In this document: in pieces, positions 8,534 through 13,190 of the stretch | Numbering within the stretch: position 1 is the first letter of the stretch | Layout of the letters: the number at the start of each line of letters is the position of its first letter | Assembly: GCA_005881595.1 (NCBI GenBank) | Contig: VBBY01000007.1 | Span: 1-38,015 of the forward strand | Direction: 5' to 3' | DNA length: 38,015 bases | DNA from: Betaproteobacteria bacterium | GTDB taxonomy: Bacteria; Pseudomonadota; Gammaproteobacteria; Burkholderiales; SG8-39 | The notes under the pieces: model-generated | What the model was told of the DNA's origin: nothing | Databases searched by the model: none | What the model saw: the letters and a program-made list of their open reading frames with translations, nothing else | Made by a program: the position numbers and the translations under genes

Positions 8534-8550
8534 GCGTTGACTGCCTCATC

Positions 8551-8577
8551 ACGGGGCTGCACGGCAGCCCCGTTTTC
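8551..8577 (+). terminator. Rho-independent terminator
   Basis: ACGGGGCTGC (8551-8560) pairs perfectly with GCAGCCCCGT (8564-8573) around a 3-nt ACG loop, followed by a T-rich tail (TTTTCT). It lies 18 bp after the stop of the secreted-protein gene. Confidence 0.9.
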
Positions 8578-8593
8578 TATGCACCGTTCAGAT

Positions 8594-9604
8594 ATGCGCG
8601 ATCGCTCCTGCACATTGCTGCTGTTGATCGTGGCGGCGTCGTTCAGCCCTCTGATCCACGCCAAGCCGCCACTGCCACGCGGTACCGTCGCTAACGACAC
8701 CTACGATTTCGGGTCCGTCAGACAAGGTGCCCCCGTCAGCCACGCCTTTATCATCAAGAACGCCGGCGAGGGGCCGCTGCGGATCACAGGCGCAGAGCTA
8801 TGGATGCCCGGGCTGACCGTGCGCGTCGCGCCAGTGGAAGTACCCGCCCAGGGCGAAGCCGCAGTGACGGTGGAGTTAAACACCGAGCGGGTGGCCGGTG
8901 CGATCGAGGGCAAGGTGCAGATTCAATGGAACGATCCGACCCGCTCGGGGGCTTCGCTGACGCTCAAAGGTTACGTCGTTCCACGGATCGCAATTGAGCC
9001 CATGCCTGCGGTCTTCCTAAGCGCGTTTACCGCCGAGCCCGCCGAGCGCACCTTAACGATCAGGAATAACGAACCGCGGCCCCTTAGGATCACAAGCGTG
9101 GAGCACTCGGCTCGCCTGAGCGTTTCCGTCGCGGACGTTGAGCCCGGCAAGGTCTTCATCCTGACCGCGCGTTCTGTCAATGGTGTGCCCGCAGGGCGCT
9201 ACGAGGAGTCCCTCACGCTCGTGACCGATAAGCCGGGGGGCGATCGGATCGACCTTCCCGTGCATCTATGGGTCAAGCCGGACCTATATGCAAATCCCGA
9301 GAACGTCGACTTTGGCACGCTGCGCGTGGAGGACGTGCAGCGCAGCGATGTAACGGCGTCCCTCACACAGACCTTCTTTCTCAAGCGCCGCGGTGACGCT
9401 TTCAGGATTACGGCCATTGTCTGCGATTCGAGCGCGGTGGATGTCACACAGTCGCCCGCGGGACCAAGCAATAGCTTCCAAATCGATGTGCGGCTACGAG
9501 CCGAAGCCCTGCGCCGAGGAAGCCTCGACGCAAAGATTCGGGTCATGACCACGGATCCAGCGTTCCCGGAGGTAGTGATTCCGTTGAGCGGCACCCTGAT
9601 CTAG
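8594..9604 (+). CDS. Exported protein with DUF1573/ASH-type Ig-like repeats
   Basis: From ATG 8594 the product is 336 residues with a signal peptide (MRDRSCTLLLLIVAASFSPLIHA, then KPPLPR). Three beta-rich units follow: NDTYDFGSVRQGAPVSHAFIIKN, then AVFLSAFTAEPAERTLTIRNN, then VDFGTLRVEDVQRSDVTASL. The first matches the DUF1573/ASH pattern (aromatic-FG-x-V-x-x-G...F-x-I-x-N). Such domains are usually periplasmic binding or scaffold modules; no partner is evident. ATG 8579 is a possible earlier start. A TTG at 8537 is rejected because translation from it would run through the terminator stem at 8551-8573. No Shine-Dalgarno and no promoter were identified. This gene begins directly after the upstream terminator, which is unusual. 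Confidence 0.8.
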   Translation: MRDRSCTLLLLIVAASFSPLIHAKPPLPRGTVANDTYDFGSVRQGAPVSHAFIIKNAGEGPLRITGAELWMPGLTVRVAPVEVPAQGEAAVTVELNTERVAGAIEGKVQIQWNDPTRSGASLTLKGYVVPRIAIEPMPAVFLSAFTAEPAERTLTIRNNEPRPLRITSVEHSARLSVSVADVEPGKVFILTARSVNGVPAGRYEESLTLVTDKPGGDRIDLPVHLWVKPDLYANPENVDFGTLRVEDVQRSDVTASLTQTFFLKRRGDAFRITAIVCDSSAVDVTQSPAGPSNSFQIDVRLRAEALRRGSLDAKIRVMTTDPAFPEVVIPLSGTLI

Positions 9605-9639: not shown

Positions 9640-9645
9640 TATAAT
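9640..9645 (+). promoter_or_regulatory. -10 box TATAAT of the helicase promoter
   Basis: A consensus TATAAT preceded by ATGCTG; no good -35 hexamer is seen at 16-18 bp. A start near 9652 would give a leader of about 140 nt before the helicase start at 9793. The leader contains a hairpin (9700-9716). Confidence 0.6.
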
Positions 9646-9699
9646 TCCCTCCCAGGTTTCTGTGTCGCGCATTTCCGGTTAGCGTCTCAGTCCGTTTAG

Positions 9700-9716
9700 C
9701 GGCCCGTCCCGGGCCG
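9700..9716 (+). promoter_or_regulatory. Hairpin in the helicase 5' leader
   Basis: CGGCCC (9700-9705) pairs with GGGCCG (9711-9716) over a GTCCC loop. No T-run follows immediately, so this is not a standard terminator. Long structured leaders are typical of cold-induced RNA helicase genes; that link is inference. Confidence 0.4.
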
Positions 9717-9792
9717 TCAATAACAAGCCTAAAAGCATCTGCCTGAACCGGTCGAAGGTTGATCCTTCCCAGGCCGATCTCAGGAGAAAGTC

Positions 9793-11082
9793 ATTACTAC
9801 GTCGTTTGAACAACTCGGCCTGTTGCCCGCGCTGCTGCGCGCCGTCGCCGAGCAAGGCTATACACAACCCACCCCCATCCAGGCGCAGGCGATCCCGGTC
9901 GTGCTTGCCGGGCGCGATCTGCTCGGCGCCGCCCAGACCGGCACCGGCAAGACCGCCGGCTTTACGCTGCCTCTTCTACAAAAACTGGTTGAAAAAGCCA
10001 ATACAAGCCACTCGCCAGCACGGCATCCGGTTCGCGCCCTGATCATCACTCCCACCCGCGAGCTCGCGGCGCAGGTCGAAGAAAGCGTGCGCACCTACGG
10101 GAAATACACCAGTCTCAAGTCGGCCCTGGTCTACGGCGGTGTCGGCATGCAGCCGCAGGTCGATGCGCTGCGCCGCGGCGTGGACATCCTGGTCGCCACG
10201 CCGGGCCGGCTGCTCGACCATGTGCAGCAGAAGACGGCCGACCTGCGCCAGGTGCAGATCCTGGTGCTCGACGAAGCCGACCGGATGCTCGACATGGGAT
10301 TCATCCACGACATCCGGCGCATCCTCGCGCTGCTTCCGGCGCAGCGCCAGAACCTGCTCTTCTCGGCGACGTTCCCTGAGGAGATCCGCAAGCTCGCCGC
10401 GTCGTTCATGCGTAACCCCGCGACCGTCGAGGTCGCGCGCCGCAACACGCCCGCCGAGCTGGTGGCGCAGGTGGCGTACCCGGTGCAGGCCGACCAGAAG
10501 CGCTCGCTGCTCGCGCATCTCGTGAAATCGAACGACTGGCGCCAGGTGCTGGTGTTCGTCCGGACCAAGCACGGCGCGAACCGGCTCGCCCAGCAGCTCC
10601 TGCGCGAAGGGATCGAAGCCGACGCCATCCACGGCAACAAGGCGCAGAGCGCCCGCACCCGCACGCTGGCGCAGTTCAAGGCCGGCTCGCTGCGGGTGCT
10701 GGTCGCCACCGACATCGCGGCGCGCGGGTTGGATATCGAGGCGTTGCCGCACGTCGTGAACTACGACATGCCGCACGTGGCCGAGGATTACGTGCACCGC
10801 ATCGGCCGCACTGGCCGCGCCGGCGTCGAGGGCGAGGCAGTCTCGCTCGTCAGCCCCGAGGAACGACCGCTGCTCGCCGCCATCGAGCGGCTGATGAACC
10901 GCAAGGTCGAGAGCCGCGCGGTGACTGGCTTCCAGGCCGCCGGCCCGAGGACCGCGCCGCCTCATAGGCCGCATTCGCGGCCGGCGCACCAGCCGGCGCA
11001 GCAGCCGCAGCCCCGCCCTGCGTCGCGGCGCTCGCGCGCGCACGAGCCGCGCCTAGGCGCGCTCCTCGGGAAACGAATCTAG
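9793..11082 (+). CDS. rhlE: DEAD-box RNA helicase, RhlE type, apparent ATT start
   Basis: ATP-dependent RNA helicase for RNA unwinding in ribosome assembly or mRNA decay. Motifs in order: aromatic Phe5 17 residues before GYTQPTPIQ (Q motif), [34 protein letters not shown] and HRIGRTGR, then a basic, Pro/Gln/Arg-rich tail of about 60 residues. The family N-terminus needs T-T-S-F-E-Q-L-G-L, which is in frame only from ATT at 9793. AGGAG at 9782-9786 sits 6 nt upstream. An in-frame TGA at 9760-9762 and the absence of ATG/GTG/TTG between it and 9793 exclude an ordinary earlier start. A TTG at 9823 would remove the conserved Phe and lacks a Shine-Dalgarno. Full length is 429 residues. Confidence 0.95.
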
Positions 11083-11520: not shown

Positions 11521-11652
11521 ATGAAGAAGGCCGAGAAAAATCCGCCGCCACAGGAGTTCTATCCGACGACAACCTACCTCGACAACAAAAGCTCAAGAGC
11601 GGGCGCAACTAACCCATCTGCGCCCCGGTGGATTTACGGCCATGAACGCTGA
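11521..11652 (+). CDS. Possible 43-residue ORF overlapping the kinase start
   Basis: ATG at 11521 opens MKKAEKNPPPQEFYPTTTYL and continues to a TGA at 11650-11652, overlapping the kinase ATG (11642) by 11 bp in another frame. AAGGGG lies about 10 nt upstream, a weak fit. The frame is open further upstream to GTG 11353, through the direct repeats. It may be a translated leader coupled to the kinase, or chance; no homologue is known to me. Confidence 0.25.
   Translation: MKKAEKNPPPQEFYPTTTYLDNKSSRAGATNPSAPRWIYGHER
11601..11625 (+). promoter_or_regulatory. Hairpin just before the kinase ribosome-binding site
   Basis: GGGCGCA (11601-11607) pairs with TGCGCCC (11619-11625) over an 11-nt loop. 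GGTGGA and then the ATG at 11642 follow within 16 nt. The hairpin could influence translation of the kinase; no T-run follows. Confidence 0.35.
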
Positions 11653-12556
11653 ACAGTTCGCCGAGCACTACTGGGCGAGCCTGCACAAATACCTCGATGA
11701 CCCCAACGAGGTGCAGCGCAGCACGGCATACGAGCTGGGACGGCACGCTCTGGCCGATGGCCTGGGTGTGCTCGACATCGCTGCCGCTCACTACGGCGCC
11801 TTGCAGCGCGTGCTTTCGGCCCGGGCGCGCCGCGCCATTCCGGGGGCGGTGATCAAGGCCGCCAACGAGTTCTTTGCCGAGTGCCTGTCGCCGTTCGAGA
11901 TAAGCTATCGCGGCGCACGCGAGGGCGCCCGCGCCTGGCAGCATCTGAACGAGGCGCTGGAAAACGAGGCGAAGCGGATCGCACACGCGCTGCACGACGA
12001 GGCGGGGCAGCTTCTTGCCTCGGTGCACTTCGCTGTCGCCGACATGGCGGGTGAGCTGCCGCCGCAAAGCCGCGCCCGGCTGCAGGAGGTCAAGTCGCTG
12101 CTGAACAGGATCGAGACGGAGCTGCGCGACCTCTCGCACGAATTGCATCCAACCGTCCTCGATCGGCTGGGCCTGCTGCCCGCGCTGCAGTTCCTCGCCG
12201 AAAGCGTGACCAAGCGCGCCGGTATCCCGATTACCCTAAAAGGCGGAGAACCGGGCCGCCTGCCCCCCGTAGTTGAGATCACTTTGTATCGGATCGTCCA
12301 AGAGGCGCTGAACAACGTGCTCAAGCACGCACAGGCGAGCAGCGCGAGCATCGAGCTCAAGGTCGGGCCGCAGCGCGTCTCGTGCACCATCCGCGACAAT
12401 GGCGTCGGCTTCGCCGCGGAGCGCATCCAGCATACCGACGGGCTCGGGCTGGCCGGAATTCGCGAACGACTGAACGCGCTCGGGGGCTCCCTGCATTTCG
12501 TCTCGAAGCCGAAGCGCGGCACCGCGCTTCGCGCCGAAGTTCCGAAAGGACGCTGA
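11642..12556 (+). CDS. Cytoplasmic histidine kinase with RsbU-N-like domain
   Basis: A 304-residue soluble sensor kinase without membrane segments. Residues about 5-85 (ASLHKYLDD..AYELGRHALADGLGVLDIAAAHYGAL) look like the N-terminal domain of RsbU phosphatases, a helical module known to bind the activator kinase RsbT. Residues about 105-180 are HisKA_3-type with RIAHALHDEAGQ (phospho-acceptor probably His118). An HATPase_c domain follows, with EALNNVLKHA, DNGVGF and GLGLAGIRER. Two nucleotides separate it from the NarL-type regulator gene, its presumed target. The RsbU-N assignment is from pattern memory and is less sure than the kinase core. Confidence 0.92.
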   Translation: MNAEQFAEHYWASLHKYLDDPNEVQRSTAYELGRHALADGLGVLDIAAAHYGALQRVLSARARRAIPGAVIKAANEFFAECLSPFEISYRGAREGARAWQHLNEALENEAKRIAHALHDEAGQLLASVHFAVADMAGELPPQSRARLQEVKSLLNRIETELRDLSHELHPTVLDRLGLLPALQFLAESVTKRAGIPITLKGGEPGRLPPVVEITLYRIVQEALNNVLKHAQASSASIELKVGPQRVSCTIRDNGVGFAAERIQHTDGLGLAGIRERLNALGGSLHFVSKPKRGTALRAEVPKGR

Positions 12557-12557
12557 G

Positions 12558-13190
12558 ATGCCTTGCCGCGTGCTGCTCGCCGACGATCACCAAATCGTGC
12601 GCCAGGGCTTGCGCGCATTGCTGGAGAAGGCCGGGCACACCGTGGTGGGCGAAGCCGCGGACGGGCGCGAGGCATGCGTGCTCGCGCACAAGCTCCAGCC
12701 GGACATCGCGGTGCTGGATCTCGCCATGCCCTTGTTGAATGGAATGGACGCGATACACGAGATCCGGCGCGTGTCGCCCAACACCGTGGCGATCCTCCTC
12801 ACGATGTACACCGACCGGGCTTATGTGCTGCAGGCCTTGCAGGCCGGCGCCAAGGGCTACGTGCTGAAGACGCAAGCGGCGGACGACCTGTTCCGCGCCA
12901 TCGAGGAAGTCTGGCGGGGCGCCGTGTATCTCAGCCCAGGCGCGGCGGTGGGACTGGTGGATGCCTACCTGAGCAAGGAAGAAAAGCCGAAGGAGCCGCT
13001 GACGGCGCGCGAACGCCAGATCCTGCAGCTGGTCGCCGAGGGCAAGACCACGAAGGCGATCAGCGTGCTGACCGGCATTACCTTCAAGACTGCCGAGTCG
13101 CATCGCAATCGCATCATGAAGAAGCTCGACATTCACCAGACCGCCGGGCTGGTGCGCTACGCCATCCGGCACGGCCTGGTCCGCCCCTGA
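12558..13190 (+). CDS. NarL/FixJ-family response regulator
   Basis: DNA-binding response regulator of 210 residues. The receiver domain (1-120) has Asp9/Asp10, phospho-acceptor Asp54 in VLDLAMP, the Thr of LLTMYTD and the GYVLK lysine. The C-terminal LuxR-type helix-turn-helix (about 145-205) reads LTARERQILQLVAEGKTTKAIS...TAESHRNRIMKKL. It starts at ATG 12558, one base after the kinase stop codon, so it is co-transcribed. The target genes are not evident; the direct repeats at 11365-11444 upstream of the operon are candidates for autoregulatory sites. Confidence 0.95.
   Translation: MPCRVLLADDHQIVRQGLRALLEKAGHTVVGEAADGREACVLAHKLQPDIAVLDLAMPLLNGMDAIHEIRRVSPNTVAILLTMYTDRAYVLQALQAGAKGYVLKTQAADDLFRAIEEVWRGAVYLSPGAAVGLVDAYLSKEEKPKEPLTARERQILQLVAEGKTTKAISVLTGITFKTAESHRNRIMKKLDIHQTAGLVRYAIRHGLVRP

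Follow-up and report, generated by a model that had tools for sequence, protein, structure and literature searches.

A probable AUU start codon behind a conserved two-hairpin leader in an rhlE-type RNA helicase gene of Burkholderiales

To our knowledge, few bacterial genes keep an AUU, AUC or AUA start codon on purpose; an arXiv survey reportedly deals with genes that prefer non-AUG starts. In E. coli, pcnB (poly(A) polymerase I) starts with AUU, and we know of no conserved kissing leader at this gene. The E. coli gene for IF3, infC, has an AUU start and is autoregulated, being repressed by IF3, and Streptomyces sigR has a conserved GTC start that is also repressed by IF3 (both from the accessible part of PMC5472188). 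Conserved starts with an extended SD sequence are described for cvfC1 (AUU) and ccpN (AUA) of S. aureus in the accessible part of PMC13009471. A DEAD-box protein, SrmB, acts on the rplM leader, with premature transcription termination (accessible part of PMC6736130).

Here we describe an rhlE-type gene that very probably has a real AUH start (AUH denotes the start codons ATT, ATC and ATA). It resembles infC in its conserved AUH start and in a product tied to translation, and its relatives' own infC genes start with ATC or ATA. Unlike infC, it encodes a DEAD-box helicase and not the discriminating factor, so that any control by IF3 would act in trans. Like E. coli pcnB, it would be an RNA-metabolism enzyme limited by an AUU start, whereas the pcnB of the window genome itself has an ATG available. 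With sigR it shares a non-canonical start with a strong ribosome-binding site; as far as the accessible text of PMC5472188 goes, sigR starts with GTC or GTT in one genus, its conservation is genus-wide and its repression by IF3 is demonstrated, whereas the rhlE start is AUU, AUC or AUA across eight families of its order plus one family from a different order, behind a covarying leader. The conserved AUH start with an extended SD is also common to cvfC1 and ccpN, but these are staphylococcal, and the accessible part of PMC13009471 mentions no structured leader for them. SrmB offers a parallel as a DEAD-box protein on an mRNA leader, but according to the accessible part of PMC6736130 it targets another gene and works via transcription termination; for rhlE, feedback on its own leader is a step that we infer. 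A literature search found no paper on rhlE with an AUU start codon or on non-AUG starts together with IF3 and an RNA helicase, and the word rhlE was absent from the main texts of PMC8632094, PMC2864571, PMC11109978 and PMC2965389.

The window (the whole stretch of DNA that was analysed, 38,015 nt) is the entire contig C9 of a draft assembly (3.79 Mb, 96.6% complete). The features of the locus are as follows.

9640 to 9645, + strand: TATAAT, a likely -10 box (sequence; it recurs, with near matches, upstream of the leader in many relatives)
9667 to 9685, + strand: upstream hairpin H0, stem GCGC/GCGT, with CCGGTT (9675 to 9680) in its loop (comparison of relatives)
9700 to 9716, + strand: putative middle GC-rich hairpin, CGGCCCG-TCC-CGGGCCG (comparison with genus relatives)
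9738 to 9777, + strand: SD-proximal hairpin H1 (covariation among relatives)
9738 to 9745 with 9770 to 9777, + strand: stem P1 of H1, TCTGCCTG with CAGGCCGA
9746 to 9751, + strand: bulge AACCGG of H1, the complement of CCGGTT 9675 to 9680 in H0, for a predicted kissing or pseudoknot helix
9754 to 9758 with 9764 to 9768, + strand: variable stem P2 of H1, GAAGG/CCTTC
9760 to 9762, + strand: in-frame TGA, which shuts the frame on the upstream side (sequence)
9780 to 9787, + strand: TCAGGAGA, with the SD AGGAG (9782 to 9786), within a CAGG able to pair with CCTG 9742 to 9745 in place of P1
9793 to 9795, + strand: ATT, the proposed start codon (sequence and conservation in relatives)
9793 to 11082, + strand: rhlE-type DEAD-box RNA helicase gene, 429 aa counted from ATT (domain and model matches)

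A domain search found both DEAD and Helicase_C in the product. The best of 35 NCBIfam models was RhlE (PRK10590), matched from residue 4 with 596.5 bits; the equivalog cut-off of 743 is not reached, and 'RhlE-type' is therefore the safe name. Upstream of the leader (8537 to 9604) lies a gene for a DUF1573/HYDIN-like Ig-domain protein, and a histidine kinase (HisKA_3) gene with a LuxR-type response regulator gene is found downstream (11642 to 13190).

Around the proposed start, 9781 to 9807 reads CAGGAGAAAGTC-ATT-ACT-ACG-TCG-TTT: C9781 is followed by AGGAG, AAAGTC and ATT, placing the SD 6 nt before ATT. Between the TGA and ATT the codons are TCC TTC CCA GGC CGA TCT CAG GAG AAA GTC, with no ATG, GTG or TTG among them. 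These findings bear out the original prediction that the conserved RhlE N-terminus is in frame only from ATT 9793, with TGA at 9760, AGGAG 6 nt before the codon and no earlier canonical codon. The first canonical codon of the frame is TTG 9823 (codon 11), which an ORF caller restricted to ATG, GTG and TTG takes as the earliest start of a 419-aa protein. Starting there would drop residues 1 to 10, conserved Phe5 included, and no SD was found at this TTG in the gene models of the 430-kb sample of the genome. From its sequence context, ATT 9793 is the sole plausible start of the RhlE-type helicase.

We searched 61 genomes for relatives, together with 98 of the family, 399 of the order and 369 of the class, and compared the 5' ends. 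ATT or ATC behind CAGGAGA is the start in the genus, and equally in many genera of its family. The first set of 51 distinct leaders gave ATT 24 times, ATC 17, ATA once, TTG eight times and ATG once. With no rule favouring 6 or 7 nt, the gap from GGAG to the codon was 6 or 7 nt in 46 of the 51; for two loci of this set (L017, L141) the script scored a nearer ATC at 3 nt, the conserved ATC being at 6 nt. A wider set comprised 108 distinct rhlE genes with the same leader hairpin, scored by a rule that favours codons 6 to 7 nt behind the SD; nine loci were left out of it (six without a candidate codon, three too short). The rule returned ATC 33, ATT 30, ATA 2, TTG 21 and ATG 22. One gene (L062) was re-scored by hand from ATC to ATG, since the ATG of its relatives is present in it, giving 64 AUH, 21 TTG, 23 ATG and no GTG. 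The SD core is 6 nt from the codon in 48 of the 64 AUH genes and 7 nt in the other 16, figures tightened by the preference in the scoring rule.

The 64 AUH genes come from seven families of the order (f1, f12, f18, f22, f23, f211, f220) and, in one case (L294), from f119 of another order, with one record lacking a family code; an eighth family of the order, f7 (L358), has an AUH start outside the 108. More than 20 genera are covered, including three single-contig genomes (G057, G610, G705). That a sequencing or assembly error in one base of an ATG produced the ATT is a notion that the draft state of the contig would allow, but 64 distinct AUH genes, single-contig genomes among them, refute it, and we give it practically no weight.

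The AUH start is not universal. In 20 genes, from f6, f210, f227, f229 and some genera of f1, the AUH place is occupied by TTG, while one further gene counted as TTG (L362) has its TTG at the later, ATG-type position. ATG lies two codons later in f14, one of two genes of f20, f207, genus g14 of f1 and other gammaproteobacteria, and 10 of 22 ATG-type genes have the SD core 6 nt away. Counted from the conserved Phe, the AUH place itself holds ATG or GTG in none of the 108 genes. The expectation that orthologues keep ATT and AGGAG came out positive within the lineage, with AUC and a few AUA beside AUU; other relatives carry TTG in that position or have their ATG two codons downstream. As judged from these gene sequences, the AUH start characterises particular lineages, not the protein family at large.

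Where the 5' end of the gene differs, the codon still keeps its 6 to 7 nt from the SD core. Four loci (L008, L011, L014, L020) encode a protein shorter by one residue, and their AUH is shifted together with the SD. In genus g5 (L025, L141, L149, L150, L152) an N-terminal extension of about 27 to 40 residues lies between the AUU or AUC start and the conserved N-terminus, and the new 5' end still has GGAG-N6-ATT/ATC. On a protein tree from a quick search, with many weak nodes, the three start classes (AUH, TTG, ATG) need five changes and AUH three; one clade of 53 rows with support 95 is AUH throughout. Within AUH, ATT, ATC and ATA must have replaced one another 15 times or more on this tree, with no change to ATG. 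Transition bias accounts for part of the missing G at the third base, T-C exchanges being transitions. ATG is the strongest start, yet it is absent at the AUH place, which points to selection for a weak start.

Could translation begin elsewhere, at TTG 9823, at a near-cognate ACG at codon 3 or at an upstream codon? TTG 9823 is present in the window, and codon 3 is often ACG, aligned with the ATG of other families. However, codon 11 is the first canonical codon in just 2 of the 64 AUH genes, and in 38 of the 64 the first downstream ATG, GTG or TTG is past the Q motif. Codon 3 is also ACC, ACA, AAA, CAG, TCG or AAT, and it lies 12 to 13 nt from the SD. Upstream, TGA 9760 excludes a start in the window gene; in 41 of the 64 AUH genes the stretch up to the upstream stop, or of 30 codons, is free of canonical codons, and among the 23 genes that do have one an SD accompanies it once (L327). 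We regard such an alternative start as highly improbable.

A lineage-wide habit of AUH starts, through an altered IF3 or initiator tRNA, is scarcely more probable. It would fit the AUH codons of both rhlE paralogues (see below) and of infC, which starts with ATC at 22 and ATA at 4 of 26 loci (29 genomes; L218 has an extra ATG two codons earlier). Against it, a 430-kb sample of the genome, which contains the window and was annotated with 388 crude gene models, had AUH behind an SD at or near chance frequency (ATT 5 against 8.2 expected, ATC 18 against 23.3, ATA 4 against 3.1), while ATG was found 63 times against 25.4 expected. The 64 AUH starts among 108 leader-bearing rhlE genes stand out from this background. 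General AUH use is not supported in this sample, and the ATG of pcnB argues the same way. A CAU initiator tRNA was found in 15 of the 29 genomes, including two from the window's genus, giving no sign of an altered initiator tRNA in the lineage. None was recognised in the window's own assembly (96.6% complete), which is probably an assembly gap.

As to the leader, the consensus scanner found no full -35/-10 promoter ahead of rhlE and no consensus -35. From the TATAAT at 9640 to 9645 we infer transcription to start near 9652. The original prediction of a leader of about 140 nt with a hairpin is supported: the length is plausible from this box, and the hairpin turns out to be the 3' part of a larger conserved leader. 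In folding energy the window leader does not stand out (z -0.99 and -1.53). H1 showed both-side changes in 8 of its 12 pairs, and none of 500 shuffles was as high on any of five measures. In 40 of 45 sequences P2 forms at least four pairs, a number that 29% of shuffles reach, and GGAGA of the SD is invariant in this 45-leader alignment. H0 stems vary by lineage and stay paired (GGGTGGC/GCCACCC, GAGGCGCT/AGCGCCTC, GGTGCA/TGCACC), these examples having been picked at complementary sites. The stems of the middle hairpin differ among genus members and seem still paired (GGCCCG/CGGGCC, GGTCC/GGACC, GATCC/GGATC).

The complement of the H1 bulge in the window, CCGGTT, lies 67 nt upstream of H1, within the H0 loop. 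We counted such complements at 103 loci. Loci with ACCGG have CCGGT upstream in 69 of 71 cases (14 expected from shuffles); those with ACTGG have CCAGT in 15 of 16 (2.1 expected) and CCGGT in 4. Rarer bulges gave TCAGT at 2 of 2 ACTGA loci, GCAGT at the single ACTGC locus and TCGGT at 3 of 5 ACCGA loci; the eight ACCGT loci have ACGGT once and TCGGT in all eight, that is, CGGT facing ACCG. Fisher tests for the ACCGG and ACTGG classes gave 8e-10 and 4e-9, kinship not corrected. Nine of the 16 ACTGG loci are from one genus, and the other seven are from Burkholderiales and cyanobacteria.

In a wide alignment of 43 stretches hand-picked from 73, mainly leaving out odd hairpin spacings, 82.6% of cells are paired in the whole structure; sliding it lowers this to 44.4% at most. 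The loop-bulge helix is 91% paired, a value partly built in, as the H0 site was chosen by its complement, and H0 pairs 55% of cells in a fixed register. Two of five measures were no better than shuffles in this alignment (further pair types 362/500, covariation score 54/500). Comparison of the relatives shows a leader with two predicted hairpins, the second of them reaching nearly to the SD, and a covarying loop-bulge complement (CCGGU/ACCGG, CCAGU/ACUGG).

At the gathering score, Rfam 15 gave no match in the window; across seven loci, at E up to 1, it returned only a tRNA and one match far under its cut-off. Model R1 had 12 matches below 25 bits in the class sample, of which only L301 precedes rhlE; L297 in the same sample (28.5 bits) is not before rhlE, and L369 and L371 in the order sample (25 to 27 bits) have no rhlE match. 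The hairpin with a matching upstream complement does precede ATG-start rhlE genes in cyanobacteria (L093, L095, L096), Burkholderiales (L066, L081, L091) and Rahnella (L109), well beyond the family of the window. Since the leader also accompanies ATG starts (23 of 108), leader and AUH are separable, and the leader is the wider device. It probably acts in cis on translation.

The SD offers a second pairing partner for P1. In 97 of 105 genes the SD tetramer is able to pair with CCUG. The base ahead of the SD RGG is a C or a T in 97 of 105 genes, compared with 20 of 49 SDs from the genome itself, and the minimum-energy fold of the window leader contains the CCUG-SD masking pair. These data fit two exclusive states, one with the SD free (P1 and the H0-H1 contact) and one with it masked, through nearly invariant bases and not through covariation.

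The genome has another rhlE-type gene (G000:C141:12683; L183, L002), 63% identical to the first. Forty loci of this paralogue were fetched (including L184 to L197 and L374 to L390); L391 and L392 were first-type genes, leaving 38. The start place is AUH in 23 of them (ATC 12, ATT 10, ATA 1), and the remaining loci mostly have TTG, GTG or ATG. Only 3 of the 23 have an SD core at 4 to 9 nt; 9 have an in-frame canonical codon at -3 to -15 codons and 14 have none. The paralogue of the window genome is one of these 14, and its ATT overlaps the stop of the preceding gene (AATTAG). At three loci (L187, L387, L388) TATAAT ends 7 to 8 nt ahead of the AUH codon, which would make their messages nearly leaderless; L387 also has a TTG three codons ahead of the AUH codon. 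The case for a predicted AUH start is weaker in this second paralogue. The occurrence of AUH in two paralogues with unlike 5' ends suggests that the codon was selected for itself.

A structured translational switch combined with a weak start discriminated by IF3 is the best reading of these findings, one that we hold with some, not strong, confidence. Initiation would use the ordinary initiator tRNA and insert formyl-Met, as at infC. IF3 would reject the AUH codon and keep rhlE at low output. A lower ratio of IF3 to 30S subunits, or 30S subunits that IF3 can hardly police, would raise that output. The leader would be an on/off switch of translation, with CCUG either in P1 (SD free) or on the CAGG of the SD (SD masked), and the H0-H1 contact would favour the free state. 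RNA-remodelling capacity, most likely RhlE itself, would move the switch, giving negative feedback.

In a simpler account AUH is a plain weak start, fixed to lower RhlE output and sensing nothing, and the leader serves independently (mRNA stability, an RNase or Hfq site). In sister families the place of AUH is taken by TTG, also a weak start, and leader and start codon occur apart, as this account would have it. A weaker SD could equally have cut output, yet GGAGA is invariant in 45 leaders; furthermore, the second paralogue, with a different 5' end, is often AUH too. We consider the plain weak start a credible but minority explanation.

Within the preferred reading of a leader switch and an IF3-discriminated start, the parts differ in strength. 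Our analysis leans slightly towards IF3 sensitivity mattering in vivo. The AUC or AUA start of infC in the same genomes makes the originally suggested link to IF3 level or cold shock more plausible, though that link is still a proposal. Feedback of RhlE on its own leader is conceivable but on balance doubtful. E. coli RhlE is said to act in ribosome assembly. The accessible part of PMC10783127 places its role at the ribosome with 50S intermediates and did not find such a role in Pseudomonas syringae. With such a role at the 50S subunit, a link to 30S and IF3 is not obvious. Initiation at non-AUG codons comes more easily to immature 30S subunits. RhlE synthesis might even be a sensor of ribosome state with two coupled gates, a kissing leader, remodelled by RhlE, in which CCUG alternates between freeing and covering the SD, and an AUH codon read well only by IF3-poor or immature 30S subunits; this is a speculative extension that we think unlikely to be correct. 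If it were true, small-subunit trouble would directly call up the helicase, and the second paralogue would have the same AUH gate without that leader.

Taken from sequence comparison, the conserved start and the conserved RNA fold directly ahead of it suggest that the cell may throttle rhlE at the first step of translation. The kissing-hairpin leader of beta- and gammaproteobacteria and cyanobacteria, having no Rfam 15 match, is a candidate for a new cis-regulatory RNA. In practice, gene callers limited to ATG, GTG and TTG place the start of rhlE too late. The genes with a conserved AUH start would gain a deeply conserved RNA helicase, probably represented by two paralogues. This makes a case for asking whether IF3, by discriminating among start codons, controls RNA metabolism through genes other than its own.
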